Below, in pieces: positions 5,273 through 28,901 of a DNA stretch of 64,000 nucleotides. The notes under the pieces are model-generated. The model ran no database searches and was not told the DNA's origin. It saw only the letters and a list, made by a program, of their open reading frames with translations. Positions within the stretch are counted from its first letter, which is position 1. Every line of letters begins with the position of its first letter. Where the stretch lies: contig NZ_CP132295.1 of the NCBI RefSeq assembly GCF_030734285.1, forward strand, positions 496,001 to 560,000, read 5' to 3'. The DNA comes from Natronococcus sp. AD-5. GTDB lineage: Archaea > Halobacteriota > Halobacteria > Halobacteriales > Natrialbaceae. Made by a program: the position numbers and the translations under genes.

Positions 5273-5298
5273 GTCGGACGCGAACCGTTTTCGGCCGT

Positions 5299-6633: not shown

Positions 6634-6710
6634 CTCGAGGGGGACCTACAGGAACGTTTCGCCGTTTCGGAAGATAACAGTTAAACGGTCACTCGTTCGA
6701 CACTCACGGC

Positions 6711-7655
6711 ATGGAAGACGCGAGCGACGAACTGGACCCCGAACTCGAGGACGTCGTTGACGAGATCCAGGCGGCCGGCGTTCCGCCCTGGCACTCGCTG
6801 TCGGTCGAGAGCGCCCGCCGGCTCGAGGATGAGGTATTCTCGGCGGGCGACGGCCCCGAGATGCGGTCGGTGCGGGACCTGCGGATCGGCGGTCCCGACG
6901 GCGACCTGCCGATCAGGATCTATCGTCCGGACGCCGAGGAGCTGCCGACGCTCCTGTTCTACCACGGCGGCGGCTGGACGCTCGGGACGCTCGACTCCGC
7001 GGACGACATCTGCCGGGAACTGGCGGTCCGCGCGGAGTGTCTCGTCTGCTCCGTCGACTACCGTCTCGCGCCCGAACACCCCTTTCCCGCGGCTGTCGAC
7101 GACGCATACGCGGCGCTCGAGTGGGCCGCCGACTACGCCGACTCGCTCGGCGGCGATCCTGGCCGGCTGGGCGTGGCGGGGACAAGCGCCGGCGGGAACC
7201 TCGCCGCGGTGACGGCGTTGCGCGTGCGCGATAGCGGGCCGGGCGGGCCGAATCTCGACGGCCAGTTCCTGCTGTATCCGATGACCGATCGCTCGTTCGA
7301 TCGCGATTCCTACCGCGAGCACGGCGACGGACCGTTGCTCACCGCGGACGGGGTCAGATGGTTCTGGGACCAGTACCTCCGGAGTCCGATCGACGAACAC
7401 AACCCGTTCGCGACGGTGTTGCGGGCGCCGGATCTGTCGGGCGTCGCTCCGGCGACGGTGGTGACGGCAGGGTTCGACGTACTCCGGGACGAGGGCGCGG
7501 CCTACGCCGAGAAGCTCTCCGATCACGGCGTCCCGACCGAGTACGATCACTATCCGACGCTCACGCACGGGTTCCTCAGCCTGACTGACGACGTCGAGCG
7601 GGCCGACGAGGCGATGGACGCGCTCGCCGAGAAGATTCGATCGCGGCTCGCGTGA
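6711..7655 (+). CDS. Alpha/beta-hydrolase of the hormone-sensitive lipase family
   Basis: This 314-residue cytoplasmic protein has the HSL-family oxyanion motif FYHGGGWTLG (residues about 83-92), the block VDYRLAPEHPFPAAVDD, the nucleophile elbow GTSAGGN (about 158-164), an acid residue in GFDVLRDEGAAYAEKL and the catalytic His in TLTHGFLSL. These enzymes hydrolyse carboxyl esters; animal kynurenine formamidase (AFMID) is a distant relative with an HGGxW motif. Its place between kynureninase and TrpB makes it a second candidate for N-formylkynurenine hydrolysis, but ordinary esterase activity is equally consistent. A TATA-like stretch in the shared 77-bp spacer lies about 28 nt before the ATG. 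Confidence 0.88.
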   Translation: MEDASDELDPELEDVVDEIQAAGVPPWHSLSVESARRLEDEVFSAGDGPEMRSVRDLRIGGPDGDLPIRIYRPDAEELPTLLFYHGGGWTLGTLDSADDICRELAVRAECLVCSVDYRLAPEHPFPAAVDDAYAALEWAADYADSLGGDPGRLGVAGTSAGGNLAAVTALRVRDSGPGGPNLDGQFLLYPMTDRSFDRDSYREHGDGPLLTADGVRWFWDQYLRSPIDEHNPFATVLRAPDLSGVAPATVVTAGFDVLRDEGAAYAEKLSDHGVPTEYDHYPTLTHGFLSLTDDVERADEAMDALAEKIRSRLA

Positions 7656-7707
7656 GCGGGCTGTAGGGCTATTCCGAGAACGACGCCGGTGACAACGACT
7701 GCAGCGA

Positions 7708-8862
7708 TCAGTCGAAGTCGAACTTCTCCGCCGCGGTCTCCATGTCCTTGTCGCCGCGCCCCGAGAGGTTCACGAGAATCGTCTCGTGTTCGCCCTCTTC
7801 GGCCAACTGGATCGCTCGAGCGACGCCGTGGCTCGACTCGAGCGCCGGGATGATCCCCTCCGTCTCGCTGAGTTCGCGGAACGCGGCGAGGGCCTCGTCG
7901 TCGGTGACGGCGGTGTACTCGCAGCGGCCGACCTCGCGGAACATGGCGTGTTCCGGCCCGACGCCGGGGTAGTCCAGGCCGGCCGAGACGGAGTGGACCT
8001 CGACGCCGTCGTCGATGACGCGCGTCTTCATGCCGTGGATGACCTCGTCTTTCCCCTTCGCGAGCGGGGCGGCGTGTTTCGTCGAATCCGCCCCCTCCCC
8101 GCCCCCTTCGGCGCCGTAGAAGGCGACGTCGTCGTCGCGGAACGCGTGGAACAGCCCCATCGCGTTGGATCCCCCGCCGACGCACGCGACCGCGGCGTCC
8201 GGCAGGTCGCCCGTTCGCTCGCGGAACTGTTCGCGGGCCTCATCGCCGATGACGCTCTGGAAGTCCCGAACCATCCGCGGGAACGGATCCGGCCCGACGA
8301 CGCTGCCGACGAGGTAGTGGGTGTCCTCGACGTTCTCGACGAGGTCCTCGAGCGCGGCGTCGACGGCGTCGGCGAGCCCCTGTCCGCCCCTTGTCACCTC
8401 GTTGACCTCGGCTCCCATCAGGCGCATCCGGAAGACGTTCATCTTCTGGCGTTCGACGTCTTTCTTCCCCATGTAGATCTCCGTCTCGAGATCGAACAGC
8501 GCGCCGACCATCGCCGTCGCGGTTCCGTGCTGGCCGGCACCGGTCTCCGCGATCAGCCGATCTCTCCCGGCCTTCTTCGCGAGCAGCGCCTGTCCGAGAC
8601 AGTTGTTGATCTTGTGGGCGCCGCCGTGGAGCAGGTCCTCCCGTTTGAGGTAGATGTCGGCGTCGTATCGGTCGCTCAGGTTTTCGGCGTAGTACAGCGG
8701 CGTCGGCCGCCCGGCGTACTCCTCGAGATGGCGCCGAAAATCCGCCTGGAACTCCTCGCTCGTGCCGATCTCGTCGTACGCGTTCGCGAGTTGCTCGAGC
8801 GGTTCGTGGAGCGGTTCGGGAACGTGGCGGCCACCGTATTCGCCAAAGTCGTCTGTAGCCAT
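7708..8862 (-). CDS. trpB: Tryptophan synthase beta chain, orphan copy without trpA
   Basis: This 384-residue PLP enzyme of fold type II begins [17 protein letters not shown]. The PLP lysine is in HGGAHKINN, the catalytic Glu in [13 protein letters not shown], and the phosphate-binding loop is GGGSNAMG. These mark the TrpB1 type, not TrpB2. I trimmed the start to 8862 because a TATA box TAAATAAAG (8888-8896, minus strand) sits about 30 nt upstream and upstream sequence is not conserved-looking. TrpB condenses indole and serine to tryptophan, normally with TrpA. No trpA or other trp biosynthetic gene is present, and it neighbours tryptophan-degrading genes. Indole salvage or serine deamination are possible roles. 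The usual GS-x-TL after GAEV reads RGGQGL here. Confidence 0.9.
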
Positions 8863-9087
8863 ACTCGCCTGAATATTTCCGCCGCGGTAAATAAAGATAC
8901 GTCTCGTGATCACACGACACAATGTATATGCATGTACGCTAGAGAACAAATCTAGTACAGAACGCGACATTTTAAACCGTATCTGGTACGGGCCCGCCAA
9001 CATCGATACGTTTTAACGCACCGACCGTCCCCGATGAAAATTTGTGGGAATATTTAACATTGGGCACACGGTACTACGCGTACACGG

Positions 9088-10722
9088 ATGCAAGATAATC
9101 TGCCCGATCAGAGCGATCGTCCGGATTTGTTTCATGCCGTTCCAGAAATCCATTATCCGGAGCAACTCAACGCGGCCTACGAGATGGTCGATCGACACGT
9201 CGAGGAGGGGCGTGGCGACGAGCCGGCCATCTATTTCGAGGGACCGACCACCACCTACGCCGAGTTGCGAGAGCGAGTCGGTCGCGCCGGAAACGCGCTC
9301 CTCGATCTCGGCGTCGAACCGGGTGATCGCGTCTTCGTTCGGTTCCCCAACCGCCCGGAGTACGTCGTCACCTGCCTCGCCGTCCAGCGGATCGGAGCGG
9401 TCGTCGTCCCCTCGATGAAACTGCTTCGTGCGAAGGAGATCAGCTACATCGTCGACAACTCCGGCTCGTCGTACGCGGTCGTCTACGACGACCTGCTCGA
9501 CGAGGTCGAGATCGCGCTGGACGAAGGCGGACTCGAGTCGCTCGAGGAGATCGTCGTCGTCGAGGACGCCGGTGTCGAACACGATTACCACGGTTTCGAC
9601 GACCTGCTCTCGGCGGCGAGTCCGGAGCTCGGAGAGCCCGAGACGAGCCGCGACGACCTCGTGATGGTCGCCTACACGAGCGGGACGACGGGACGGCCGA
9701 AGGGAACCGTCCACACGCACCGGCAGATGCTCGCCATCACGGACACCTACGCGCGATACTGTCTGGAGCCCGAACCGTCGGACGTGTTCACGAGCAACGC
9801 GCCGATCGCGTTCACGTACGGGTACGGGATGCTCGTCGCGTTTCCCCTCCGGTTCGGCGCGGCGACCTGTATCATCCAGGATCCGACGCCGGAATCGTTA
9901 CTCGACGCGATTCAGGCGGTCGGCGTCTCGATTCTCGGATCGATCCCGACGGCGTACAACCAGATGCTTTCCGAACACGGGGACCTCATCGAGGACTACG
10001 ACCTCTCCTCGTTGCGGCGGGCCGTGAGCGCGGGCGAACCGCTTCCGCCGAGCACGTACGAGCGCGCCGCGTCCAGCCTCGGCGTCGAACCGCTCGACGG
10101 GATCGGCTCGACGGAAATGCTGCACATCTTCATCAGCCACCGTCACGACGACGACGTGGATCCCACCGCGACCGGCCGACCCGTGCCGGGATACGAGTGC
10201 AAGGTCGTCGATCCGAAGAGCTACGAGGAACTCGACCGCGGCGAGCCCGGTCTGTTGCTCGTTCGGGGTCCGACGGGAGTCACGTACTGGAACCGTCCCG
10301 AGAAACAGGCGGAGGGTGTACACGACGGCTGGAGCATCCCCGGAGACATCTTCGTCCATCGGGAGGACGGCCGATTCGAGTACAAGTCTCGCCAGGACGA
10401 TCTGATAATCACGAGCGGATACAACGTTCCCGGTCCGGAGGTCGAGGACGTGCTACTGGAGCGAGACGAGGTGTACCAAGCGGCCGTCGTCGGCAGCCCC
10501 GACGAAGAGCGCGGCAAGATCGTGAAGGCCTTCGTCGTTCTCGAGGACGGCTACGAGCGGCGCCGATCGCTGACCGACGCGCTGAAAGATTACGTTAAAG
10601 AGCGGATCGCGCCGTACAAGTACCCGCGGGAAATCGAGTACCTCCCGGAACTGCCGACGACGGAGACCGGGAAGATAAAGCGCGCGACGCTCCGCGAACG
10701 GGAACGAGAGCGGGAAAACTGA
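9088..10722 (+). CDS. Acyl-CoA synthetase, benzoate/2-aminobenzoate-CoA ligase type
   Basis: This 544-residue ANL-superfamily enzyme has the AMP-binding P-loop AYTSGTTGRPKG (about residues 195-206), the motif YNQMLSEHG, the A5-like GIGSTEML, and the C-terminal hinge and lysine motif TGKIKRATL. The N-terminal sequence HYPEQLNAAYEMVDRHV resembles benzoate-CoA and 2-aminobenzoate-CoA ligases, which activate a carboxylate with ATP and CoA. In context (kynureninase makes anthranilate; a 2-aminobenzoyl-CoA oxygenase-like fusion lies further on), anthranilate is the inferred substrate; benzoate or another aryl acid cannot be excluded. A TATTTAAC box (9051-9058) lies about 34 nt upstream. The LivK-type gene follows 147 bp downstream on the same strand. 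Confidence 0.85.
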   Translation: MQDNLPDQSDRPDLFHAVPEIHYPEQLNAAYEMVDRHVEEGRGDEPAIYFEGPTTTYAELRERVGRAGNALLDLGVEPGDRVFVRFPNRPEYVVTCLAVQRIGAVVVPSMKLLRAKEISYIVDNSGSSYAVVYDDLLDEVEIALDEGGLESLEEIVVVEDAGVEHDYHGFDDLLSAASPELGEPETSRDDLVMVAYTSGTTGRPKGTVHTHRQMLAITDTYARYCLEPEPSDVFTSNAPIAFTYGYGMLVAFPLRFGAATCIIQDPTPESLLDAIQAVGVSILGSIPTAYNQMLSEHGDLIEDYDLSSLRRAVSAGEPLPPSTYERAASSLGVEPLDGIGSTEMLHIFISHRHDDDVDPTATGRPVPGYECKVVDPKSYEELDRGEPGLLLVRGPTGVTYWNRPEKQAEGVHDGWSIPGDIFVHREDGRFEYKSRQDDLIITSGYNVPGPEVEDVLLERDEVYQAAVVGSPDEERGKIVKAFVVLEDGYERRRSLTDALKDYVKERIAPYKYPREIEYLPELPTTETGKIKRATLREREREREN

Positions 10723-10869
10723 TCGGACAGTCGCCATCGCTGCTTCGGGTTGACGCGAGGATTGTCGCACCGTGCACGAAAATCGGTAGAAGCGGATTCC
10801 TCACCGCTGCTGCGTCGGGACCGTCCCTCACAATAACGCTTTTTACTTTTGCGATAGGTATGTTGGTTG

Positions 10870-12105
10870 ATGACACACGGCAAAAACGAGGGTACTCCAG
10901 GAGTGGGCACTCGACGACGAAGCCTTTTGCGAAGTGCTGGTGCAGCGGGAGTTGCGCTGGCGGCAGGGTGTCTCGGGGGCGACGGTGCTGACGACGACGT
11001 GATCACGATCGGATCGTTGCAGCCGCTTTCCGGGCCGTTCACGCCGTGGGGGAACGCTCATCAGTCGGGTCTCGAGTTCGCGGTGAACGAGATAAACGAG
11101 AACGGCGGGGTCCTCGACCGAGAGTTGCGAATCGTCGAAGCGGATACCGAGAGCGATGCGGGGGAAGCGGATACGATCTTTCGACGCTTCGTCGAGGAAG
11201 AGAACGCCGTCGCGATGACCGGACCGGTCTCGAGCGACGTCGGTATCCGCACCGGACAGACGGCGGAACAGATGGAAGTACCGCTCGTCTTGCACATGGC
11301 AGGATCGCACCGCATCCACACGAGGAGTTCCCGGTACACGTTCAGAATGGGGTCGCTTCCGGCCCCGATGGACCTCCAGCCGCAGGCCGAACTGATCGAC
11401 GCCGAGGGGTACGGCACCGTCGGCGCGGTCACCGCCGATTACGAGTGGGGGAATACGGTCGAGGAGCAGATCGGGGACCTGTTCCCCGGGGACGTCGATC
11501 TCGATACCGCGATGACGCCGCAGGACGAGAGCGACTTCGCGCCGTTCCTGCGGGACTTTTCGGACGAGATGGAACTCCTCGTCGCGACGGGTCATCCGCC
11601 GGCGCAGAACGCGATCCACTCGCAGGCGCTCGAACTCGGATTCGAACACGAGATCACGACCGGCTCCGGTCAGCCTCCCGGCGTCATCTACGAAGACCTC
11701 GGCGCCGAGGCGGAAACGTTCGCCCACCTGCACATCGCGGACGTCTACGACGACCAGTTCGTCGACGTCGCGGAGCGATTCGCGGACGACACCGGCGAGC
11801 GGATGGACACGCACGAAGCGATCGGCTACGTTGCGGGAGAACTGATCGCGGCCGCGATCGAGGACGCCGATTCGACGGATCCGACCGAAATCGCCGACGC
11901 CGCTCGGAACATCGAGCTCGATACGCTCTTTGCGGCACCGCTTCAGTACAACGAATGGGGCGAGATCGACGAAGTCGTCTCGATACTCAGCACGTTCGAA
12001 TCCGGCGCGCCCGAGTACTATCCGGACGGCGACTTCCACCTCGTCGAACAGTACCGGAGTGATCCGATGAGCGCCGACTTGGTCGAACCGCTCGTCGACG
12101 ACTAA
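10870..12105 (+). CDS. livK: LivK-type ABC transporter substrate-binding lipoprotein
   Basis: This 411-residue protein starts with a Tat-type signal (RRRSLLRSAGAAGVALAAG) leading to a lipobox cysteine in AAGCLGG, typical of haloarchaeal Tat-exported lipoproteins held on the outer face of the membrane. The mature part is a periplasmic-binding-protein fold of the branched-chain amino-acid type: ITIGSLQPLSGPFTPWG, then GLEFAVNEINENGGV. I took the ATG at 10870 rather than the TTG just before it. Members bind amino acids but also aromatic acids and amides. It should deliver substrate to the LivHMGF proteins encoded convergently at 13609-17092. A T-rich promoter-like stretch lies about 24 nt upstream. 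The downstream IS element begins soon after the stop codon. Confidence 0.9.
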   Translation: MTHGKNEGTPGVGTRRRSLLRSAGAAGVALAAGCLGGDGADDDVITIGSLQPLSGPFTPWGNAHQSGLEFAVNEINENGGVLDRELRIVEADTESDAGEADTIFRRFVEEENAVAMTGPVSSDVGIRTGQTAEQMEVPLVLHMAGSHRIHTRSSRYTFRMGSLPAPMDLQPQAELIDAEGYGTVGAVTADYEWGNTVEEQIGDLFPGDVDLDTAMTPQDESDFAPFLRDFSDEMELLVATGHPPAQNAIHSQALELGFEHEITTGSGQPPGVIYEDLGAEAETFAHLHIADVYDDQFVDVAERFADDTGERMDTHEAIGYVAGELIAAAIEDADSTDPTEIADAARNIELDTLFAAPLQYNEWGEIDEVVSILSTFESGAPEYYPDGDFHLVEQYRSDPMSADLVEPLVDD

Positions 12106-12272: not shown

Positions 12273-13323
<1,051 letters not shown>

Positions 13324-13608: not shown

Positions 13609-14307
13609 TCAATCGCGGAGATACACCTCCCTGATCCGGTCGCTCTCGAGCAGGTCGTCGGCGGGAGCCTGGGTAGCGATTCGACCGTTCTCGAGGAGAT
13701 ACGCCCGGTCCGCGAGTTCGAGCGCTTCGTGGACGTGCTGTTCCGTCAGCAGGATGGTGGTGTCCTCGCTGATCGCTTTCACCTTCTCGAACACTCGTCT
13801 GGCTAACTGCGGTGCGAGTCCCATCGAGAGTTCGTCGAGCGCCAGGATTTCCGGTTCGACCATCAGCCCACGACCGACGGCGAGCATCTGCTGTTCGCCC
13901 CCGCTCAACGTCCCCGCCGGCTGATCGCTTCGTTCCCGAAGGACGGGAAACAGCTCGTACACTTCCCGCCGATTCTCCGCGATCCGCTCTCGCTTCGTGT
14001 ACGCGCCCATCTCCAGATTCTCTTCGACGGTCATCTCGTGGAAGAGGTTTCGCTCCTCGGAGACGTGAACAAAGCCGAGTTCGACGACTTCGTCCGGCGT
14101 GAGCGCTGATGCGTCGTGGCCGAACAGCTCTATCGTCCCGTCGTCTACGGACAGGAGCCCGGAAATCGTCTTCAACAGCGTCGTCTTGCCCGCCCCGTTC
14201 GGCCCGACGAGGGCGACGACCCGATCGTCGGTCGTGATTTCGACAGAAACGTCCCAGAGCACCTGCAATTCACCGTAGGAGACGTCGATCCCGTTCGTCC
14301 GGATCAT
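13609..14307 (-). CDS. livF: LivF-type ABC transporter ATPase
   Basis: This 232-residue ATPase has Walker A GPNGAGKTTLL (about 36-46), the signature LSGGEQQMLAVGRGL (about 134), Walker B LALDELSMGLAP and the switch His in LLTEQHVHEA. The VSEERNLFHEMTVEENL region is typical of LivF. With LivG, LivH and LivM it powers uptake of a substrate captured by the LivK-type lipoprotein; cluster context suggests an aromatic acid or amino acid. Its start overlaps the livG stop by 4 bp, indicating translational coupling. Its C-terminus ends REVYLRD directly at the IS right end, and the TGA stop reads from bases shared with the TGTCAA terminus of the element. Few if any residues appear to be lost. Confidence 0.92.
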   Translation of the reverse strand: MIRTNGIDVSYGELQVLWDVSVEITTDDRVVALVGPNGAGKTTLLKTISGLLSVDDGTIELFGHDASALTPDEVVELGFVHVSEERNLFHEMTVEENLEMGAYTKRERIAENRREVYELFPVLRERSDQPAGTLSGGEQQMLAVGRGLMVEPEILALDELSMGLAPQLARRVFEKVKAISEDTTILLTEQHVHEALELADRAYLLENGRIATQAPADDLLESDRIREVYLRD

Positions 14308-15020
14308 CCGCTTTCACCGAGATAGGCCTTGGTTACCCGTTCGTCGTTCCGTATCTCCGCCGGCGCCCCTTCCGCGATTAGCTGTCCGTCGTTCAGGACG
14401 AGAATCCGATCGGTGGTTTCCATGATCGCCTCGACGACGTGTTCGATCCAGAAGATCGAGACGCCCAGTTCGTCACGAATGCGCTCGATCGTCTCGGTCA
14501 GCGCTTCGATTTCGGCGGGCGTAAGTCCGCTCCCGATCTCGTCTAGCATGAGCAACTTCGGTTCGCACGCCAGCCCCCGCGCCAGTTCGACGTGTTTTCG
14601 CTCGGCCATCGTCAGGCTGCTCGCCTCCGCGTGTTCTTTGCCCGCGAGGCCGACGAACGAGATGTACTCCTCGGCCACTCGTCGGGCGGCGTCGGTGGCG
14701 TGAGACCCACCGAAGATGGCGCCCATCTGTACGTTTTCCAGGACGGTCGACTCGTCGAACGTTCGGACGATCTGGAACGTTCTGACGATTCCGCGTCGGC
14801 AGATCGCGCTCAGCTTTTCGCCCGTGATCTGCGCTCCGTCGAACGCCACCGATCCCGAATCCGGCGGAATGACGCCCGTAATGGTGTTGAACAGCGTCGT
14901 CTTGCCTGCGCCGTTGGGGCCGATCAACCCGACGATTTCCTCCGATTCGAGCGAGAAGGTCACGTCGTCGACCGCGACTAACCCCCCGAAGATTTTGGTT
15001 ACTCCGGAGATCTCGAGCAT
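14304..15020 (-). CDS. livG: LivG-type ABC transporter ATPase
   Basis: This 238-residue ATPase has Walker A GPNGAGKTTLF (about 33-43), a Q-loop region in RTFQIVRTF typical of LivG, the signature SLTMAERKHVELARGLA (a variant without the usual LSGGQQ form), Walker B LLMLDEIGSGLTP and the switch His in WIEHVVEAIM. It pairs with LivF to energise the LivHM channel on the inner face of the membrane. A TATA box TATAAAA on the minus strand at 15044-15050 lies about 27 nt upstream of the ATG, so livGF probably has a leaderless promoter of its own besides any read-through from livHM, whose livM stop is 180 nt upstream. Confidence 0.92.
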   Translation of the reverse strand: MLEISGVTKIFGGLVAVDDVTFSLESEEIVGLIGPNGAGKTTLFNTITGVIPPDSGSVAFDGAQITGEKLSAICRRGIVRTFQIVRTFDESTVLENVQMGAIFGGSHATDAARRVAEEYISFVGLAGKEHAEASSLTMAERKHVELARGLACEPKLLMLDEIGSGLTPAEIEALTETIERIRDELGVSIFWIEHVVEAIMETTDRILVLNDGQLIAEGAPAEIRNDERVTKAYLGESG

Positions 15021-15043
15021 GCGAATCTATTGCATTCGTACTG

Positions 15044-15050
15044 TTTTATA
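15044..15050 (-). promoter_or_regulatory. TATA box for livGF
   Basis: TATAAAA on the minus strand lies about 27 nt before the livG ATG at 15020. This is the standard archaeal spacing for a leaderless transcript and implies a second promoter inside the transporter gene set. Confidence 0.6.
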
Positions 15051-15200
15051 CTTTTTCTGCAGGTCCTCCTCGAGAGTCCCATTGAACCGGCTTCGATCCC
15101 TCGAGGCGCTGCGACGAACGCGACTTCGTTCGAGAACGCTCCCGTTCCGGACGAACGGGTGCGGGCCCGATTCCGTGCGGAGGTGGACGCCGAGAGCCGG

Positions 15201-16238
15201 CTACCGAAGTCGGTCGAGAACCGACCCGGGTGCGGAAACGCCCAGTTCGCCGTTTCGGAGTTCCCGCACCTTCGGAACGATCCCCTCCCGGAAGTAGAGG
15301 AACAACGCGATCAACAGCCCGCCGAGGATCGCGGTGCGCCACTGGCCGGCATCCTGGAGTATCTCGTTGACGTAGATGATCACCCCCGCACCGACGACCG
15401 GACCGATCAGCGTCCGCATCCCGCCGAGGACCAGCATCACCAGCACCAGCACGTCGATGGATTGAAACGCGAACATCGAGGGAAGAATGTAGCCTTCCGA
15501 CTGTGCGTACAACGGACCAACGAGTCCGATGACGGCTGCGGCGGCGAACCCCGCGATGGACTTGTACTTTACGACGTCGATACCGACGGATTCGGCGGCG
15601 ATTTCGTCCTGCCTGATCGCTTTGAACGCGAACCCGTACTTCGAATTCATCATCAGCCTGTATCCGACTAGGAGGGCACCGACGAACGCCAGCAGGACGT
15701 AATAGAGTGCGATCTGACCGGTTTCCCCCAGCGCCGTCGCGAGGAACTCCACCTCGAGTTCCCGGAACGGGATGCCCGTGCTCCCGCCGGTAATATCACG
15801 CGCACCGACGAAGATTTCGCCGAACGCGAGCTGGAGCGCCAGCGTCAGGATCGCGATGACGATCACGGTCATGCCGCGCCGCGCCGAGACGTAGCTTACG
15901 AGCAGCCCGATCGACCCGGCGACGAGTCCCGAAACGGGAACGAGTAACCACGCCGAAACCCCGAGGCTATCGGCGAGCAGCGCCGTGGTGTAGGCGCCGA
16001 TTCCCGTCAGCGCGCCGACGAAGAGGAACAGCTGATTCGTGTGCCCGAAGACGACGTTCAGGGCGATCGTGAGGGACGCGAAGGTCAGGAACAGGACGAG
16101 CAGTCTGGCCTGATAGGTCATCCCCGCCTCGACGACGAATGCCGGGAGGACGGCGAGTACGGCCAGCGTGATACCGATATCCCTGTACTCGCGGACGATA
16201 CCATCGAGAGCCGCGTCTTCGGCCGCGGTTTCACTCAT
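15201..16238 (-). CDS. livM: LivM-type ABC transporter permease
   Basis: This 345-residue polytopic membrane protein starts MSETAAEDAALDGIV. I chose the ATG at 16238 because it overlaps the livH stop as ATGA. After a short cytoplasmic N-terminus come about nine hydrophobic helices, with LivM landmarks such as TIALNVVFGHTNQLF, ITGGSTGIPF, the coupling loop YGFAFKAIRQDEIAAESVGIDV and VLGGMRTLIGPVVGAGVI. It forms the translocation channel with LivH. The amino acid or aromatic-acid substrate cannot be read from sequence. Confidence 0.92.
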   Translation of the reverse strand: MSETAAEDAALDGIVREYRDIGITLAVLAVLPAFVVEAGMTYQARLLVLFLTFASLTIALNVVFGHTNQLFLFVGALTGIGAYTTALLADSLGVSAWLLVPVSGLVAGSIGLLVSYVSARRGMTVIVIAILTLALQLAFGEIFVGARDITGGSTGIPFRELEVEFLATALGETGQIALYYVLLAFVGALLVGYRLMMNSKYGFAFKAIRQDEIAAESVGIDVVKYKSIAGFAAAAVIGLVGPLYAQSEGYILPSMFAFQSIDVLVLVMLVLGGMRTLIGPVVGAGVIIYVNEILQDAGQWRTAILGGLLIALFLYFREGIVPKVRELRNGELGVSAPGSVLDRLR

Positions 16239-17092
16239 GCTATCTCCTCCGGACGCAGGATCAACACGGTAACGACGACCGCGAACAGGATTACCATCGA
16301 GACGTACGCGCCGACGAAGAAGTTTCCGAAGGTGATGACGAGTCCGAGGAACACGCCCGCGCCGATCGTGCCCTCGATGTTTCGGACGCCGCCGACGATC
16401 GAGACGATGATCGCAAAGATGGTGAGTTCGAACCCCGTCGCGACGGAAATCGCCGACTGCGTACTCCAGAGAATGCCCGCGACACCGGCGAGGACGACGC
16501 TGAGGACGAAAGTGAGACTCCGAATCGCTCGCGGATCGATTCCGCACAGCAGTGCGCCGGTTTCGTCCTGGAAGACCGTCCGCGCGGCCTTCCCGAGGTA
16601 CGTCTTCCGCAGGAACACGAACAACGCGAGTAACAACGCGCTCGAGACGAGGAGAATGATCGACGTCGATTCCCGGACGCTGACCCCGCCCATCGAGAGC
16701 GAGAGCCCGGTGTAGGGGAACGAATAGTTCAACGGATAGTAGACGTACAGGATCCCGTCGAGCAAAATCGCGAGTCCGAGCGTCGTGAATATCCCGAGCA
16801 GGATTCGCTCCTCACCGTTCGATCGGTAGACGCTCGAGAGAAGCGTTCGGTCGATCGAGAGCCCCAGTACGGCCACGAAACCGAGACTGAGGACGGCGGC
16901 GACGACCGCGTTCGGTACGTAGGGTACGACGGCGACGCCGGCCACAACGGTGATAACGGAGAAGACGCCGAGCGAGAGATTCAGCACGTTACCCAGGCCG
17001 AATACGAGCGTAATGCCGGCGCCGAGCAAGGCGAATAATAACCCGCGTGCGATTCCGTCGATCGCAATCTCTATGAGTGCTGTAGCCTCCAT
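16235..17092 (-). CDS. livH: LivH-type ABC transporter permease
   Basis: This 285-residue permease begins MEATALIEIAIDGIARG; a GTG eight codons upstream is an alternative start. It has LivH features: FALLGAGITLVFGLGNVLNLSLG in the first helices, a coupling loop around KAARTVFQDETGALLCGID, and SIVGGVRNIEGTIGAGVFLGL near the C-terminus. It is the first transporter gene of the co-directional block and is coupled to livM by a 4-bp overlap. The MaoC-like gene lies 129 bp upstream on the same strand, so cotranscription with the catabolic genes is possible. Confidence 0.9.
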   Translation of the reverse strand: MEATALIEIAIDGIARGLLFALLGAGITLVFGLGNVLNLSLGVFSVITVVAGVAVVPYVPNAVVAAVLSLGFVAVLGLSIDRTLLSSVYRSNGEERILLGIFTTLGLAILLDGILYVYYPLNYSFPYTGLSLSMGGVSVRESTSIILLVSSALLLALFVFLRKTYLGKAARTVFQDETGALLCGIDPRAIRSLTFVLSVVLAGVAGILWSTQSAISVATGFELTIFAIIVSIVGGVRNIEGTIGAGVFLGLVITFGNFFVGAYVSMVILFAVVVTVLILRPEEIA

Positions 17093-17221
17093 TCGATCAG
17101 TGGTAGCGTTTCTCACTCATCGTCTTATAATTATCCTTGCGGTGGTACGTTCCCGATACTTCGACGACTCCCCTCGAGCGAATCGTGATCGACCGGTCGC
17201 CGGACGATAGCGGCTGCTGCG

Positions 17222-17665
17222 CTACGGACGAGCGCGTTCGACGAGGACGAGATCGGTCCGGGTTACGACCGTCTCGTCGTTCTGGTTTCGCGTTTCGATG
17301 TCGAAGCCGACGAGCCCGTTTCGATCGCTCCACCGCTCCTTCTCGGTCACGCTGACGGATTCGCGGAGTTCGTCCCCGGGCGTGACCGGGTTCGTCCACC
17401 GGAGTTCGTCGACTCCGAGCGCGCCCACCACGGCGACGTCCGCGAACAACGCATCGACGACGAGCCGCATACTTATCGAACCGGTGTGCCAGCCGCTGGC
17501 GATGAGCGTTCCGAACTGAGACTCTCGCGCGGCGTCCTCGTCGACGTGCATTCGCTGGGGATCGTCCCGTTCCGCAAAGGAGACGATTTCGCCCCTCGTG
17601 ACGGGTCGCGGGCCGATCGAATGCGTTTCGCCCGGCTCCAGCTCGTCGACGTATCGATCCGACAT
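17222..17665 (-). CDS. MaoC-like hotdog-fold dehydratase domain protein
   Basis: This 147-residue single-hotdog protein shows the MaoC/R-hydratase pattern: PVTRGEIVSFAERDDPQRMHVDEDAA with the catalytic-type D...H pair, then QFGTLIASGWHTGSISMRL and a VDELRWTNPVTPGDELR strand set. Such proteins hydrate enoyl-CoA esters to 3-hydroxyacyl-CoA, though many standalone members have other acyl-CoA substrates. Standing between the acyl-CoA dehydrogenase and livH, it is a plausible hydratase for a beta-oxidation step after ring dearomatisation. That makes it a functional alternative to the atypical crotonase at 22329-23102. Confidence 0.85.
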   Translation of the reverse strand: MSDRYVDELEPGETHSIGPRPVTRGEIVSFAERDDPQRMHVDEDAARESQFGTLIASGWHTGSISMRLVVDALFADVAVVGALGVDELRWTNPVTPGDELRESVSVTEKERWSDRNGLVGFDIETRNQNDETVVTRTDLVLVERARP

Positions 17666-17827: not shown

Positions 17828-18967
17828 TCAGGACTCGTACATCCGGTTCGTGATCACCTGGCGATTGATCTCGTTCGTCCCCTCGTAGATCTGCATCCCT
17901 TTCGCGACTCGCATGTACCGTTCGACCGGATAGTCCGTGGAGTAGCCCCGCGAGCCGTGAATCTGGACGGCTTCCGTCGCGGCGTCCATCGCGACGTCGG
18001 TCGCGTAGGCTTTGGCCATCGCGGCCGCCTGCGTGACTCGCTGCCCCCTGTCGCGTTTGTCGGCGGCCGACAGGGTCAACAACCGGGCCGCTTCGACCTC
18101 GATGGCCATCTCGGCGAGTTTGAAGCCGACTCCCTGAAACTCCCTGATCGGTTTGCCGAACTGCTCTCGCTCGTCGGCGAACGAGCGGCTCGCGTCCAGG
18201 GCAGCCTGTGCGACGCCGACCCCCTGCGCGCCGGTCCCGATGCGTCCGATGTCGAGGCCCTCGAGGACGTACCGGAGCCCCTTCCCGCTCGTCCCGACGA
18301 GATTTTCGGCGGGGACGCGAACGCCGTCGAACGTAACCTCGCTCTCGACCGACGCCTCCCCCTCCATGCACGGAATGTCTCGAACGAGCTCCACCCCGTC
18401 TCGATCCCAGGGTTCCGGGACGCCGACGAGACTGAGACCGTCGTCCGTTCTGACGACGAGGATCATCAGGTCCGCGACCGAGCCGTTGGTCATCCACACC
18501 TTGTGTCCGTCGATCACCCACTCGTCGCTGTCCCGCTCGGCGCTCGTCCGAATCGATCCCGCGTCGCTTCCGGCCTCGGGCTCGGTCATCCCGAGCGCGG
18601 CGATCCACTCGCCCGTACAGGCCTTCTCGAGCCACTCCTCGCGTTGCCACTCCTCGCCGTACGTGTAGACGGGGTAGCCGACGAGCGAGGAGACGACGTT
18701 CACCGCTCCGGCGATGAGCTTCCAGGCCCGGGCGAGTTCCTCGCTCGCGATCGCGAACGATCGGAAGTCCAGCCCGGCGCCACCGTACTCGGCGGGATAC
18801 GGGATTCCCACGAGGCCGTTCTCGGCGACCCGACGAACGAGGTCCGCCGGAAACTCGCCGTCGCTCTCGTATTCCTCGACGTGCGGCTCGATTTCGGAGT
18901 GACAGAAGTCCCCGACTTCGTCCCGGTACGCTGCGTGGGATTCGTCCAACTCGAACTCGCGTATCAT
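17828..18967 (-). CDS. Acyl-CoA dehydrogenase
   Basis: This 379-residue flavoprotein begins MIREFELDES; the ATG at 18967 is preferred because a TATA-like CTTATG lies about 24 nt upstream. Family landmarks are ALGMTEPEAGSDAGSIRT, KVWMTNGSVADL, REQFGKPIREFQ, the QIHGSRGYSTDYPVERYMR segment and the catalytic base Glu in QIYEGTNEINR near the C-terminus. It oxidises an acyl-CoA to the 2,3-enoyl-CoA, passing electrons to ETF. It lies between the monooxygenase/OYE fusion (84 bp gap upstream) and the MaoC gene, consistent with oxidation of a reduced cyclic or dicarboxylic CoA ester. Chain or ring specificity is not predictable. Confidence 0.93.
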   Translation of the reverse strand: MIREFELDESHAAYRDEVGDFCHSEIEPHVEEYESDGEFPADLVRRVAENGLVGIPYPAEYGGAGLDFRSFAIASEELARAWKLIAGAVNVVSSLVGYPVYTYGEEWQREEWLEKACTGEWIAALGMTEPEAGSDAGSIRTSAERDSDEWVIDGHKVWMTNGSVADLMILVVRTDDGLSLVGVPEPWDRDGVELVRDIPCMEGEASVESEVTFDGVRVPAENLVGTSGKGLRYVLEGLDIGRIGTGAQGVGVAQAALDASRSFADEREQFGKPIREFQGVGFKLAEMAIEVEAARLLTLSAADKRDRGQRVTQAAAMAKAYATDVAMDAATEAVQIHGSRGYSTDYPVERYMRVAKGMQIYEGTNEINRQVITNRMYES

Positions 18968-19051
18968 GGGATGACACATCGCACACGGTACTCATAAGCG
19001 TTCGTGCGCCGCGCGAGCGAGCGAGCGTGCAGTTCGACGAGAGACGGTCGG

Positions 19052-21220
19052 CTACAGCGAGTTGACGTCGACGTGTTCGGGGTACCACTGACAGAGATCC
19101 GCCGTCGCCCCGCCGACCTGCGTGTTGACGTCGTCGCTCGTCGTGAGATAGTTCGTCGACATGGCCGGTACGTTCACCTCGTTGCGGATCTGCTCGCAGT
19201 AGTTCCCCAGGACGTCGGGGTCGAATTTGGGACGGTCGTTCGCCGTCGTCTGTCCGGCGACCACCGTCAGCAGGTCGCAGCCGTGCTCTTCGAGTCGGGC
19301 ACCGGCGGCGAACGCGTCGGTCAGATCGTATCCGTCGGGCGCCCAGTCGGTCGCCGGTAACTTCACGCTCACCGGTTTCTCGTCGGGCCAGACCGCGCGA
19401 ACCGCGTCGAACACGTCGAGCGGGTATCGAAGTCGGTTCTCGAGCGAACCGCCGTACTCGTCGTCGCGCTCGTTCGTCCGCGGCGAGAGGAAACTCGATA
19501 GCAGGTATCCGTGACCGAAGTGGAGTTGGAGGAGGTCGAAACCCGCCTGATCGGCCAGTTGCACGGCGTACGCGAACCGTTCGCGGACGCGTTTCATATC
19601 GTCCGCATCCATCGCCTTCGGGATCTGGCTGCTCGAGGTGTACGGCGTCGCCGACGCCGAGAGCAGGTCCCACGCGTCGTCGTCGGGGAGCGGTCGGTCG
19701 AGACCGTACGCCCGCGGCTTCGTCGCTCCTCGCTGACCGGCGTGGACGAGTTCGATACCGAGCGTCGTCCGGTCCGACGCTTTCCGCGTCTGTTCGACGG
19801 CACTCGCCCAGGCGTCTCCGTGCTCCTCCCCGTAGAGACCGGGTGTTCCCGGCGTGATCCGTCCGATCGACGAGACGGAAACCGGTTCCGTCATCACGAG
19901 CCCGACCCCTTCCGAACCGAGGTCGGAAAGTCGCCGGAGTTGCCGCTCCGACGGAACGCCGTCGGTCGCGTCGGAACTGGGCGTCGGCGAAAACGCCGCC
20001 CGGTTCGGCACCGTCACGTCGCGAAGCGAAAGCGGCTGGTGCATCGGCGGTGTGGCGACGGCGCGTTCGGCTTCGGTCCCGTTTGTGCGCCGTGCGTACC
20101 AGCGGTCGAACTCGTCGACGTACTCCCTGTCGCGGATGCCGAGTTCGTCGTACGTGATCCGTCCGCTCCGGGTCAACATGTTGAACACGAACTGCTGCGG
20201 CTCGAGGTTTGTGTACCGCTCGACGGTCTCGAAGTACCTCCTGCTGTGTCGAGAGGCTTTCTGGAGCGCTTCGACCGCGGGCCGACGCTCCTTTTCGTAC
20301 CATCGGATCGCCGCTTTCTCGTCCTCGGGATGTTCCTCGAACCCCTCGTAGAGGGCGATCGCGTCCTCCATCGCCATCTTCGTCCCGGAACCGATCGAGA
20401 AGTGCGCCGTGTGGGCGGCGTCGCCGAGCAACACGACGTTCTCGTCGTCGTGGTGCCACGTCCGGTTCTTGACGATCGGGAAGTTTCGCCACCCGTACAG
20501 TTTCGACTCCAGGTCGTAGCCGTTCAGGTGGTCGGCGAACAGGTCCTCGAGGTAGGCGAGCCCATCGTCCTCGCTCTTCTCGTCGAGTCCGGCGTTTCGC
20601 CACGTTTCTTCGGTACACTCGACGATGAACGTGCTCTTGCGGCCCGGATACGCGTGGATCCGCCAGAGCCCGTCCTCGTTCTCGCGGAAGATGAACGTGA
20701 AGACGTCGAACGGTTTTGCCGTGCCGAACCAGGCGAACTTCGCGTTTCCTTCGGTGATCCGAGGCTTGAACCGCTCCGAGAACGTTTCTCGGGTAATACT
20801 CCGAGCGCCGTCGGCTCCGACGAGCAGTTCCGACTCCGCTGCGAGCGCGTTCGGATCGTCGACGTCCGTCTCGAAATGCATCTCGACGCCGACTTCGTCG
20901 CACCGATCCCGAAGGATGTCCTTGAGGTCGGCGCGCATCATGCCGGCGAACCTGTGCCCGCCGCACCTGATGTACTCGCCGTCGTAGTGGACGTCGATCG
21001 GATCCCACTCGATGAACCGGTCGGTGATCTGCTGGTGGGTCCTGTAGTCCGCCTCCCGAAGCGCACTCAGCGTGCTGTCCGAGAAGACGATGCCCCATCC
21101 GTACGTGTTGTCGGCGGGATCCCGCTCGTAGAGCGTGATATCCCAGTCCGGATTCGACTTCTTCAGGAGCAGACTCGCGTACAGTCCGCCGGGTCCGCCG
21201 CCGATTACGTTAACGTTCAT
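19052..21220 (-). CDS. Flavin monooxygenase-OYE fusion, 2-aminobenzoyl-CoA monooxygenase/reductase type
   Basis: This 722-residue fusion joins two flavoenzymes. Residues 1 to about 390 are a class A flavin monooxygenase: dinucleotide motif VIGGGPGGLYAS, LLVGADGARS and the GD motif VVLLGDAAHTAHF. From about residue 400 an Old Yellow Enzyme domain begins (MHQPLSLRDVTVPNRAAFSP), with the hallmark HFGHGYLLSSFLSPRTNERD followed by YGGSLENRLR. This arrangement is known from 2-aminobenzoyl-CoA monooxygenase/reductase of Azoarcus (Aromatoleum) evansii and from salicylyl-CoA 5-hydroxylases. The former hydroxylates and then reduces anthraniloyl-CoA to a non-aromatic enamine ketone. The nearby kynureninase and CoA ligase favour anthraniloyl-CoA; salicyloyl-CoA is the main alternative. 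Length is slightly below the roughly 780 residues of bacterial homologues. Confidence 0.88.
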   Translation of the reverse strand: MNVNVIGGGPGGLYASLLLKKSNPDWDITLYERDPADNTYGWGIVFSDSTLSALREADYRTHQQITDRFIEWDPIDVHYDGEYIRCGGHRFAGMMRADLKDILRDRCDEVGVEMHFETDVDDPNALAAESELLVGADGARSITRETFSERFKPRITEGNAKFAWFGTAKPFDVFTFIFRENEDGLWRIHAYPGRKSTFIVECTEETWRNAGLDEKSEDDGLAYLEDLFADHLNGYDLESKLYGWRNFPIVKNRTWHHDDENVVLLGDAAHTAHFSIGSGTKMAMEDAIALYEGFEEHPEDEKAAIRWYEKERRPAVEALQKASRHSRRYFETVERYTNLEPQQFVFNMLTRSGRITYDELGIRDREYVDEFDRWYARRTNGTEAERAVATPPMHQPLSLRDVTVPNRAAFSPTPSSDATDGVPSERQLRRLSDLGSEGVGLVMTEPVSVSSIGRITPGTPGLYGEEHGDAWASAVEQTRKASDRTTLGIELVHAGQRGATKPRAYGLDRPLPDDDAWDLLSASATPYTSSSQIPKAMDADDMKRVRERFAYAVQLADQAGFDLLQLHFGHGYLLSSFLSPRTNERDDEYGGSLENRLRYPLDVFDAVRAVWPDEKPVSVKLPATDWAPDGYDLTDAFAAGARLEEHGCDLLTVVAGQTTANDRPKFDPDVLGNYCEQIRNEVNVPAMSTNYLTTSDDVNTQVGGATADLCQWYPEHVDVNSL

Positions 21221-22140: not shown

Positions 22141-22328
22141 TTTTTTCCCCAATCCCGGTCCGGCTCTCGGTACTGGAATACCAAGCGGGTGCGCTCGAAA
22201 TGAACGCCCTGGTCGTGAGCCGCTGACCGACGAGTCCGATCTCGACGGGCGCGGGTCTAGCTGGTTGACCCGCTCCCGATCTCTTCGACGGCCCATACTT
22301 TTACGATCGATTGCCGCGTGACTCGAGT

Positions 22329-23102
22329 ATGGTGAACGCAGATTTCACCGTGGATGATTACGCGGCGTACATCACGGTCCAGCGCGCGGAGAAGTTGAAC
22401 GCGATCGATACGTCGACGAAAACCGAGATAATAGATCGGCTCCGGCAGTACAAGGACGACGAGGCGGTACGGGTCGTCGTCTTTCAGAGCGACGGCGATC
22501 GCGCCTTCTGTGCCGGCGGCGACGTCCGGGAGATCCCGGAGACGGACTACTCGCTCAAACACTTCACCGATAGCTGGGACGAACTGTTCGCTACCATGCG
22601 GAACCTGGGGCTGCCGACGGTGGCGAAAGTCGACGGCGTCGCCCTCGGCGGCGGATTCGACTGGCTCCTCCACACGGACTTCGTGGTCGCCGCCTCGGAC
22701 GCCGAAGTCGGCCAACCGGAGATCGACCTCGGCATCGTGAACCACTTCTCGCCGCCGGTACTGTTGGACCAAGTAGGGGTCCGGAAGACGATGGAGTTGC
22801 TGTTGACCGGGGAGACGATTTCGGGCGCCGAAGCGGCGGAAATCGGTCTCGTGACGCGAAGCGTCCCTCGCGAGGAACTGGACGAAGCGGTCGATTCGCT
22901 CGTCAGTACGCTCGTAAACAAGAACCCGCGCGTCGTCGAGAAGATCAAGGACGGGATCTACACGAGTTTGGAGATGTCGCCGTCGGCCGCCAAATCTCAC
23001 CTCGAGGACGTCTCCCTCGAGAGCGCGCGCACGGATCCCGACTACCGCGAGGGGGTCGACGCGCAGTTGGCGGGACGAGACCCCGAGTGGACGGTGAAGT
23101 AA
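22329..23102 (+). CDS. Divergent enoyl-CoA hydratase/isomerase (crotonase) family protein
   Basis: This 257-residue crotonase-fold protein starts MVNADFTVDDYAAYITV. The oxyanion-hole motif FCAGGDVREI and the GVALGGGFDWLLHTDFVV segment are clear. The first canonical catalytic Glu (GGGCE in hydratases) is replaced by Asp in GGGFDW. The second Glu is kept in GQPEIDLG, but the usual G-x-G-G-T-Q-R-L that follows is replaced by IVNHFSPPVLL. Simple hydratase activity is therefore uncertain; related enzymes include ring-opening hydrolases, isomerases and CoA hydrolases. It diverges from the LLM operon. A CTTTTAC promoter element (22298-22304) lies about 28 nt before the ATG. Confidence 0.88.
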   Translation: MVNADFTVDDYAAYITVQRAEKLNAIDTSTKTEIIDRLRQYKDDEAVRVVVFQSDGDRAFCAGGDVREIPETDYSLKHFTDSWDELFATMRNLGLPTVAKVDGVALGGGFDWLLHTDFVVAASDAEVGQPEIDLGIVNHFSPPVLLDQVGVRKTMELLLTGETISGAEAAEIGLVTRSVPREELDEAVDSLVSTLVNKNPRVVEKIKDGIYTSLEMSPSAAKSHLEDVSLESARTDPDYREGVDAQLAGRDPEWTVK

Positions 23103-23158: not shown

Positions 23159-23563
23159 TTACTCGGCATCGATCGCCGCGAAGCCTTCCATCTCGACGAG
23201 GGCGTCCTCTTTGAAAAACGCACTCACTTCGAAGAGCGCCATCGTCGGGTACTCGTCGAAATACGACGAAAAGACCTCGCCCAGCGGGTCGAGGTTCTCC
23301 ACGTAGTCGTCTCGATCCGCGACGAAAACGTTCAACTTGACGATATCGTCCATCGTCCCGCCGGCCTCTCGAACGACGGTCCGAAGGTTCTCGAGGACTT
23401 GTTCGAACTGTCTCACGAGGTCGTCCGGAGCCACGATGGTCTCGTCGGCGTCGGCACCGTCCTGACCGGCGAGAAACAGGATATCGTCGCTCGAGGTGAG
23501 GACTCCGTGGTTGAAGCCGCGCGGCGGTGCGAGTCCCGAGGGGTTGATGATCTCTTTCGACAT
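23159..23563 (-). CDS. RidA/YjgF-family protein lacking the canonical arginine
   Basis: This 134-residue protein has the chorismate-mutase-like trimer fold signatures of the Rid family: SSDDILFLAGQDGADA, RQFEQVLENLRTVVREAGGTMDDIVKLNVFV and YPTMALFEVSAFF. RidA proper hydrolyses 2-aminoacrylate and other enamines/imines using an Arg in the PARSxVEV motif; here the aligned residue is Met (PTMALFEV), while the later Glu (EMEG) remains. Other Rid subfamilies lacking Arg do not act on 2-aminoacrylate, and some sit in aromatic-degradation clusters. Since oxidation and reduction of anthraniloyl-CoA yields a ring enamine, deamination of that intermediate is an attractive inference. Confidence 0.87.
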   Translation of the reverse strand: MSKEIINPSGLAPPRGFNHGVLTSSDDILFLAGQDGADADETIVAPDDLVRQFEQVLENLRTVVREAGGTMDDIVKLNVFVADRDDYVENLDPLGEVFSSYFDEYPTMALFEVSAFFKEDALVEMEGFAAIDAE

Positions 23564-23639: not shown

Positions 23640-24407
23640 TCACTCCGCAGTCCACCCGCCGTCGACGACCAGACACTCGCCGGTGACGTACGTCGCCATG
23701 TCGCTCGCCAGGAAGAGCGCCGCGTCTGCGACCTCCTCGGGCGACGCGAACCGATCGCAGGGGATGTCGGCGAGAATCGAGTCGTGAAGTTCCTCGTTCG
23801 CTTCGATCCCCGCAGTCAGGTCGGTCGAGACGTACCCCGGGGCGATCGCGTTTACCCGCACGTCGGGAGCCCAGTCGAGTGCCAGGCTCTTCGTTAGCCC
23901 AACCAGACCGTGCTTCGACGCGACGTAGGAGTGTTGACGAGGCGTCCCGACGACGCCCGAGATGCTGGCGATATTGATCACGCTTCCGCCATCGGTGTTC
24001 AGGAGATACTCGCCCGCTTCGTGCGTGCAGGTGAACGCACCGCGGAGATTCACGTCGATCGCGGCGTCGAACTCGGCGGGATCTGCGTCTTCCGGTCGAC
24101 CCATCGCGGCGGTCGGGTTGATACCGGCGTTGTTGACGACGATGTCGAGGGATCCGAGCTCCTCGCTCGTTCGCTCGAACAGTCGCCGAACGGTCGACCG
24201 ATCGGTCACGTCGGTCGTAACGGCGATCGATTCGCCTCCCCGCTCTCGAACGACCTCGACGGCGTCGCGAACGTCGTCGTCGGTCCGAGATGTCGGAACG
24301 ACGTCGGCGCCGGCGCGCGCGAGCGCCGCCGCGATTGCCAGTCCGATACCTCTCGTTCCGCCGGTAACGACGGCGGTGCGGTCGGAAAGATCGATTTCGA
24401 CTGTCAC
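23640..24407 (-). CDS. Short-chain dehydrogenase/reductase (FabG-like)
   Basis: This 255-residue SDR starts with GTG at 24407. That start is preferred over upstream codons because a TTATAAG box (24431-24437) lies 27 nt before it and the Rossmann strand AVVTGGTRGIGLA begins soon after. It has NNAG, the catalytic Ser in INIASISGVVG, YVASK (Tyr and Lys) and NAIAPGYVSTDL. It would interconvert an alcohol and ketone with NAD(P)(H), for example 3-hydroxyacyl-CoA to 3-oxoacyl-CoA in the proposed degradation route. It lies 76 bp upstream of the RidA-family gene on the same strand and 98 bp downstream of the IclR regulator. Confidence 0.9.
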   Translation of the reverse strand: MTVEIDLSDRTAVVTGGTRGIGLAIAAALARAGADVVPTSRTDDDVRDAVEVVRERGGESIAVTTDVTDRSTVRRLFERTSEELGSLDIVVNNAGINPTAAMGRPEDADPAEFDAAIDVNLRGAFTCTHEAGEYLLNTDGGSVINIASISGVVGTPRQHSYVASKHGLVGLTKSLALDWAPDVRVNAIAPGYVSTDLTAGIEANEELHDSILADIPCDRFASPEEVADAALFLASDMATYVTGECLVVDGGWTAE

Positions 24408-24430
24408 GGATCCATAGTCTCCGGGCGCGG

Positions 24431-24437
24431 TTATAAG
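24431..24437 (-). promoter_or_regulatory. TATA box for the SDR gene
   Basis: CTTATAA on the minus strand lies 27 nt before the GTG at 24407. The spacing supports both a leaderless transcript and the non-ATG start. Confidence 0.6.
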
Positions 24438-24505
24438 GTCATTCCTCTTTATTATCGCACGCCGACAGTTTCGGCGGAGAAGCACGGCAAGAGTACGACG
24501 TCCGA

Positions 24506-25261
24506 TCAGGCGATCCCGTACTCGAGTCGAAGCTCGAGTTCGTTCGCCGCCCCGGAAACGAGGTTCGGAAGTTCGCTGCGGAAGTAATCGTCCCGCAGTC
24601 GGTTTTCCGGCCCGACGACGGCGATGGCTCCCTCCAGCGAACCGTCACTGACGACCGGTGCGGCGACGCTCCGGATGCCCTGAATGGCTTCGCCGACGTC
24701 GAACGCGACGCCGCGATCCCTGACCTCCTCGAGTTCCTCACGGAGCGTCTCGTAATCCGTGATCGTGTGCGCCGTCTTTCGCGGGAGTCCCTGCTGATCG
24801 ATGAGTTCCTCGACCCTGGATTCCGGCATCTGGGAGAGGAGCGCCTTTCCCGGCGCGTGATAGTGAAACCGCGTGTGCCGTCCGATGCGTCCGGCCGTCT
24901 GCACGGCCCGCTCCCCCATCGCTTTCTCGAGCCCGACGGTGTAGCCCCGCTCCTCGACCATTAGCCATACGGCCTCGTCCGTATCCGCCGCCAGTTGCTC
25001 GAGAATGGGGGGCGAAATCCGCGCGATCGGCAGGGTTCGCTTCGCGTGCACCCCGTGGTCGAGAAATCGAAGACTCAATCGATACACGCCGTCGTCTTCG
25101 ACGAGATATCCGGACTCGACCAGCGTGTCGACGTAATTGTGCGTCGTGCTCTTTGCGAGATCGAGGTGATTCGAGAGATCGGTGTGCGTCGGTTCGTCCA
25201 ATTTCTGGACCGCTTCGATAATCATGAACAACTTGGATGCGGTCTTTACTTTGTAGCTCAT
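24506..25261 (-). CDS. IclR-family transcriptional regulator
   Basis: This 251-residue regulator has an N-terminal winged HTH (KTASKLFMIIEAVQKL, then LSNHLDLAKSTTHNYVDTL, residues about 7-45) and a C-terminal IclR effector domain: DEAVWLMVEERGYTVGLEKA, RFHYHAPGKALLSQMPE and GIRSVAAPVVSDGSLEGAIAVVGPENR. Haloarchaeal IclR proteins regulate aromatic and sugar catabolism. It sits at the edge of the inferred anthranilate cluster and upstream of the SDR and RidA genes, so it is the obvious local regulator. The effector is not predictable. The nearest A/T-rich element is about 45 nt before the ATG, suggesting a short 5' leader. Confidence 0.92.
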   Translation of the reverse strand: MSYKVKTASKLFMIIEAVQKLDEPTHTDLSNHLDLAKSTTHNYVDTLVESGYLVEDDGVYRLSLRFLDHGVHAKRTLPIARISPPILEQLAADTDEAVWLMVEERGYTVGLEKAMGERAVQTAGRIGRHTRFHYHAPGKALLSQMPESRVEELIDQQGLPRKTAHTITDYETLREELEEVRDRGVAFDVGEAIQGIRSVAAPVVSDGSLEGAIAVVGPENRLRDDYFRSELPNLVSGAANELELRLEYGIA

Positions 25262-27414: not shown

Positions 27415-27436
27415 GTGATTGATACAGTCAGGCACG

Positions 27437-28819: not shown

Positions 28820-28901
28820 GCGCCACCGCCGACCGTTTCCCCGGTCGGCGCGGTCGCGGGCGAGAACCGAGCGCACCCTCGAGCGGGCGAGGGCGTGATT
28901 C

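Follow-up and report, generated by a model that had tools for sequence, protein, structure and literature searches.

In a 64,000-nucleotide stretch of the haloarchaeon Natronococcus sp. AD-5 (NZ_CP132295.1, positions 496,001 to 560,000; hereafter the window), one gene encodes a class A FAD monooxygenase fused to a half with the fold of Old Yellow Enzyme (OYE), in which, at the level of sequence, the barrel fold has been kept and much of the FMN site has been lost. On balance, we favor the view that this fusion hydroxylates anthraniloyl-CoA and that the product of the gene immediately upstream, a luciferase-like (LLM-class) protein, takes over the reduction lost from the OYE half, probably with the use of F420H2. 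The second activity of an enzyme of the 2-aminobenzoyl-CoA monooxygenase/reductase type would then probably be supplied by a separate protein. If this is correct, a neighboring gene has taken over, from a fused domain, one step of a two-step dearomatizing flavoenzyme, and F420 has a catabolic role in haloarchaea.

The fusion gene opens with ATG and encodes a single chain in which Pfam profiles matched FAD_binding_3 (PF01494, residues 2-321, E 3e-18) and Oxidored_FMN (residues 393-709, E 6e-37). The GGGPGG, DG and GD motifs of the monooxygenase half are conserved, with GGGPGGL starting at residue 7 and GD at Gly266-Asp267, in agreement with an initial annotation that had read class A monooxygenase motifs followed by an OYE domain. 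The same annotation had placed the protein among the 2-aminobenzoyl-CoA/salicylyl-CoA fusions, and this was borne out by an end-to-end match to the NCBIfam model NF006101, "bifunctional salicylyl-CoA 5-hydroxylase/oxidoreductase" (821.7 bits, E 5e-247; below the equivalog cut-off of 1078 bits, with the alignment reaching position 715 of 768), and by an identity of ~42-45% to bacterial relatives, including the protein encoded on pAL1 of Arthrobacter Rue61a (42-44%). An AlphaFold2 model of the two domains was confident (pLDDT 92.5), and its OYE half resembled thermophilic-type OYEs (TM score 0.88). The nearest solved fold to the monooxygenase half was that of VioD which, like other class A aromatic hydroxylases, lacks an OYE half and acts on a different substrate.

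The OYE domain had been described as full. An Oxidored_FMN domain is indeed present, but its match covers the profile only up to position 318 of 342, and the chain stops 13 residues past the DLC motif, whereas intact relatives run 44-83 residues further. In the model, beta-strand 8 (709-712) is the final element, without the Gly-Arg loop and the helix found after this strand in OYEs. OYE residues are given here in the numbering of YqjM, of which Q102, Y169, R215 and R308 are named in a solved mutant entry; the motifs of the fusion presumably correspond to these residue numbers. Q102, H164, H167, Y169, R215 and the G/A-R motif were present in 20/20 representatives of the intact bacterial fusions, and the window fusion has E490, H567, H570, Y572 and K620 at these positions and lacks the G/A-R motif. 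The remaining LLM-type members from haloarchaea and actinobacteria were altered at overlapping sets of flavin-site positions, and the actinobacterial members with an LLM partner also lacked the HxxHxY triad. An artefactual frameshift or stop as the origin of the short C-terminus was rejected, as the other haloarchaeal members and the five actinobacterial degenerate members end at approximately the same place. The initial annotation had proposed that the single chain both hydroxylates and reduces its substrate, and had named an OYE domain lacking FMN-binding residues as one observation that would speak against it. Such a domain is substantially what was found, given the change of Q102 to Glu490 and of Arg215 to Lys620 and the loss of the C-terminal loop and helix, and the proposal was not upheld.

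The two halves of the fusion have also diverged at different rates. Mean identity of the OYE half compared to the monooxygenase half was 60 vs 49% among the 20 intact representatives, and 60 vs 72%, 51 vs 71% and 58 vs 71% among the haloarchaeal LLM-type, haloarchaeal cupin-type and actinobacterial LLM-type members, respectively. Pair by pair, the OYE half was the less conserved one in 99-100% of comparisons within the degenerate groups and in 1% within the intact group. The dN/dS ratio of the OYE half ranged from 0.10 to 0.36 in ten degenerate pairs and exceeded that of the monooxygenase half in nine of them. Because these values are well below 1, the OYE half of the degenerate fusions is relaxed yet under purifying selection, probably for folding or binding. 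With much of its FMN site gone, the OYE half of the window fusion probably acts as a scaffold without catalytic function or as a domain that binds substrate or partner. An alternative is that the fusion performs both steps in one chain through an altered OYE flavin site, leaving the LLM protein with another job. The window fusion retains its HxxHxY triad (H567, H570, Y572) and an intact modeled barrel, which speaks for this reading, but the equivalents of Q102 and R215, the C-terminal G/A-R loop and the last helix are all lost, the OYE half evolves faster than the monooxygenase half, and actinobacterial members that share the LLM partner have dispensed with the triad as well; we consider this alternative unlikely.

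The LLM gene was found directly upstream of the fusion gene, on the same strand and with a gap of -4 to +28 bp, in 18/18 LLM-type loci (13 haloarchaeal, 5 actinobacterial), and the OYE half was degenerate in all 18. None of ~65 fusions with an intact OYE half had an LLM neighbor within 1.5 kb, and the LLM gene was also missing from the wider surroundings of these fusions that were examined. Of 391 haloarchaeal genomes, 10 held the LLM orthologue, and these were exactly the 10 that have the LLM-type fusion. In the order that includes Herbihabitans (250 genomes), the five best LLM matches (53-59% identity) fell in precisely the five genomes with degenerate fusions, and the next reached at most 46%. 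The five actinobacterial clusters are ordered LLM, fusion, ligase, short-chain dehydrogenase, enoyl-CoA hydratase, RidA and acyl-CoA dehydrogenase. Many clusters with an intact OYE half and no LLM gene have otherwise similar neighbors (RidA, short-chain dehydrogenase, enoyl-CoA hydratase, acyl-CoA dehydrogenase and ligase). Because several of the same downstream genes accompany so many intact fusions, the simplest reading of the linkage and co-occurrence is that LLM replaces the OYE step. On this reading, the LLM gene should be required precisely in those cases that combine a degenerate OYE half with RidA, short-chain dehydrogenase, enoyl-CoA hydratase and acyl-CoA dehydrogenase genes. Literature searches, which covered open-access papers, turned up no description of an LLM partner of such a fusion. 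It is very improbable that the intermediate is reduced in trans by another OYE-family protein of the host, with LLM in a regulatory or accessory role: there are four further OYE-family matches elsewhere in the host genome, but none sits in the cluster, and the gene that goes with OYE decay in archaea and bacteria alike is LLM, not an OYE.

The LLM protein belongs to PF00296 and has the luciferase-like fold, with Z scores of 23-28 to Mer, Adf, FGD and FMN enzymes. The nearest NCBIfam models were F420-dependent LLM families. All haloarchaeal LLM-type genomes tested carried cofH, cofD was present in 5/5 actinobacterial hosts, and npdG (above cut-off) stands with a second cofH in the cluster of Natronosalvus. 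F420H2-dependent LLM enzymes such as picrate reductase Fht, Apd6 and LxmJ, which resemble the window LLM in family, fold and hosts with F420 genes, reduce the aromatic nitro-ring of picrate, cyclic imines and C=C bonds (PMC8498797); the window LLM, unlike these, belongs to an uncharacterized subfamily, scores below the NCBIfam F420 cut-offs and is tied to a fusion gene. Taken together, this suggests that F420 is the likely cofactor. The second cofH of Natronosalvus is intact and lies inside its cluster; in Natronococcus sp. AD-5, a partial second cofH (70% identical, one internal stop) lies outside the window at 454613-455065 of the same contig, 41 kb away. A loss of F420 synthesis in Herbihabitans was considered and dropped when CofD was found.

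RutA has the LLM fold, and RutA pathways likewise use a RidA-family protein, RutC. Type II Baeyer-Villiger enzymes also have this fold (PMC6279831). Both are consistent with a different role for LLM, as an oxygenase of the Baeyer-Villiger or RutA-like kind that depends on FMNH2 and opens the ring of 5-hydroxyanthraniloyl-CoA oxidatively and without ring reduction. We judge this to be rather unlikely, since the downstream genes are like those of clusters with an intact OYE half and the nearest models are of F420 families.

Several observations weigh against a replacement of the OYE step by an F420H2-dependent LLM. The window LLM missed the curated NCBIfam F420 cut-offs (TIGR03619, 130 of 166.9 bits), its fold resembles FMN and F420 enzymes equally, and npdG and cofH are linked to the cluster in one cluster only. 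In the draft Herbihabitans genome, FbiC did not score above threshold, although CofD is present. Residual flavin binding by the window OYE half is possible, because His567, His570 and Tyr572 are retained and the R-to-K change is conservative. One LLM-less fusion, L016, from a genome that is 82% complete, nests inside the LLM clade. Finally, the co-occurrence of fusion and LLM could go back to one or two origins in evolution plus transfer, because a single clade of all degenerate fusions was not rejected (p-AU 0.35); the LLM types alone as one clade were rejected (p-AU 0.006).

Anthraniloyl-CoA, the substrate that the initial annotation had favored, is well supported by context as the likely one: an indoleamine 2,3-dioxygenase, kynureninase, TrpB, a ligase and RidA are encoded around the fusion (Table 1), and these gene families suggest a route from tryptophan through kynurenine and anthranilate to anthraniloyl-CoA. 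The dioxygenase, a hydrolase and kynureninase would produce anthranilate from tryptophan, and the ligase would convert it to anthraniloyl-CoA. By analogy with the known enzyme, the FAD half of the fusion would hydroxylate anthraniloyl-CoA at C5. In the bacterial 2-aminobenzoyl-CoA monooxygenase/reductase, the second flavin site reduces the dienone ahead of re-aromatization; here, as linkage and co-occurrence suggest, the LLM-class protein would supply the missing hydride, most likely from F420H2. RidA, the short-chain dehydrogenase, the hydratases and the acyl-CoA dehydrogenase would then open and oxidize the ring product, as in clusters with an intact OYE half. A more tentative proposal, which we hold with somewhat less than even confidence, is that the OYE half, now a non-catalytic pseudo-enzyme, docks an LLM hydride transferase that uses F420H2, or passes substrate to it, in a domain-for-gene displacement common to archaea and actinobacteria that gives haloarchaea a catabolic use of F420.

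Table 1 Features of the window at and around the fusion gene
Feature	Position	Strand	Details
FMO-OYE fusion, 722 aa	19052..21220	-	FAD monooxygenase (FMO) half residues 1-380, linker, pseudo-OYE half 393-712
Class A FAD monooxygenase half	20081..21220	-	GGGPGG (from 7), D137-G138, G266-D267; VioD nearest solved fold
OYE-fold half, degenerate FMN site	19052..20044	-	Q102 to E490, R215 to K620; C-terminal G/A-R loop and last helix absent; H567, H570, Y572 retained
LLM-class (luciferase-like) oxidoreductase, 287 aa	21248..22111	-	27 bp upstream of fusion; PF00296; proposed F420H2-dependent substitute for OYE reduction
Indoleamine 2,3-dioxygenase family	4109..5272	+	PF01231, 235 bits
Kynureninase	5299..6633	-	TIGR01814 above equivalog cut-off
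Alpha/beta hydrolase, candidate formylkynurenine hydrolase	6711..7655	+	Fold only
TrpB	7708..9003	-	TIGR00263 above cut-off
Benzoate-CoA-ligase-family enzyme, candidate anthranilate-CoA ligase	9088..10722	+	TIGR02262, 370 of 375 bits
ABC transporter substrate-binding protein	10867..12105	+	Via 88% identical orthologue in Natronococcus CG52
Branched-chain-type ABC transporter, two ATPases and two permeases	13609..17116	-	
MaoC-type hydratase	17222..17665	-	
Acyl-CoA dehydrogenase	17828..18979	-	
Enoyl-CoA hydratase/isomerase family	22311..23102	+	
RidA-family protein	23159..23563	-	Expected enamine/imine hydrolysis
Short-chain dehydrogenase	23640..24485	-	
IclR-family regulator	24506..25261	-	

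The closest characterized systems, the 2-aminobenzoyl-CoA monooxygenase/reductase of Azoarcus evansii and its Arthrobacter pAL1 homologue ARUE_113p00230, share with the window fusion a class A FAD monooxygenase joined to an OYE-fold half, and a ligase and RidA nearby. Unlike these, the window fusion lacks key FMN residues and the last 40-80 residues of the OYE half, and has an LLM gene directly upstream and a kynurenine cluster that feeds it. The gene order is identical in a close relative, Natronococcus sp. CG52, where the cluster is on a plasmid, and parts of the tryptophan/anthranilate cluster recur in several other haloarchaeal clusters.

A search for related loci in a collection of genome contigs gave three, two of them full-length. 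The initial view of the enzyme as unusual in an extreme halophile was not quite accurate, since full-length fusions occur in ~20 of 391 haloarchaeal genomes, in two clades; they are widespread in bacteria. In a tree of the monooxygenase half (47 rows), all haloarchaeal fusions formed one clade (support 100/99), which split into an LLM-linked clade that includes the window fusion (100/98) and a sister clade (100/100). The fusion thus lies beside, not inside, the sister clade with its cupin dioxygenase gene, so that the tree alone leaves the substrate unfixed. Sister-clade fusions (L017-L025; cupin-type, salicylyl-CoA 5-hydroxylase-like) also have a degenerate OYE half, still more so than the window clade, but lack LLM, and a sodium symporter adjoins the fusion in place of an ABC transporter. 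A gentisate-dioxygenase-like cupin gene was present in 9/9 genomes of the sister clade and 0/11 of the window's clade (the L016 genome included), so that the sister clade probably cleaves an aromatic 5-hydroxy product oxidatively. The cupin scores equally close to 5-aminosalicylate dioxygenase, and below both cut-offs.

The database name and the dioxygenase-like gene of the sister clade both suggest that the window fusion could itself be a salicylyl-CoA 5-hydroxylase. We regard this as improbable: the dioxygenase-like gene is absent from the genomes of the window's own clade, the context is one of kynureninase, indoleamine 2,3-dioxygenase and RidA, and the pAL1 protein (L046 12001-14394) carries the same NCBI name. 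The anthranilate CoA pathway of Arthrobacter Rue61a pAL1 is experimentally supported (PMC3534580), and because a protein of this pathway bears it, the family name is misleading. The preferred assignment to anthraniloyl-CoA corrects this name; within the family, functional types are told apart by the integrity of the OYE half and by the neighboring genes.

Other members of the family differ in their surroundings. The divergent, LLM-less L016 (locus L056 2335-9122, G389) adjoins anthranilate synthase (TrpE/TrpG-like) genes and a methanogenesis-marker-12-like protein, and the ligase beside it is 62% identical to the window ligase; this neighborhood suggests a biosynthetic use of hydroxyanthraniloyl-CoA. 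An actinobacterial fusion linked to cupin and FAH-family genes (L142 7685-10075) has a partly altered OYE half (PPTALATA, QFGHGHLL) and an intact C-terminal GR motif.

Within the window, a cyclase-family protein and an FAH-family hydrolase stand alongside the indoleamine 2,3-dioxygenase, kynureninase, TrpB and alpha/beta hydrolase genes (1537-9003), next to the fusion cluster. TrpB is an odd member of a tryptophan-degradation cluster and raises the question of indole salvage into the pathway. From their translations, two overlapping, apparently frameshifted open reading frames at 12273-13323 resemble IS200/IS605-type TnpB, and consecutive genes at 27419-32513 for a permease, a LarA-like protein, a PdxA-like dehydrogenase and a DUF1537-like kinase resemble a four-carbon acid-sugar type cluster.
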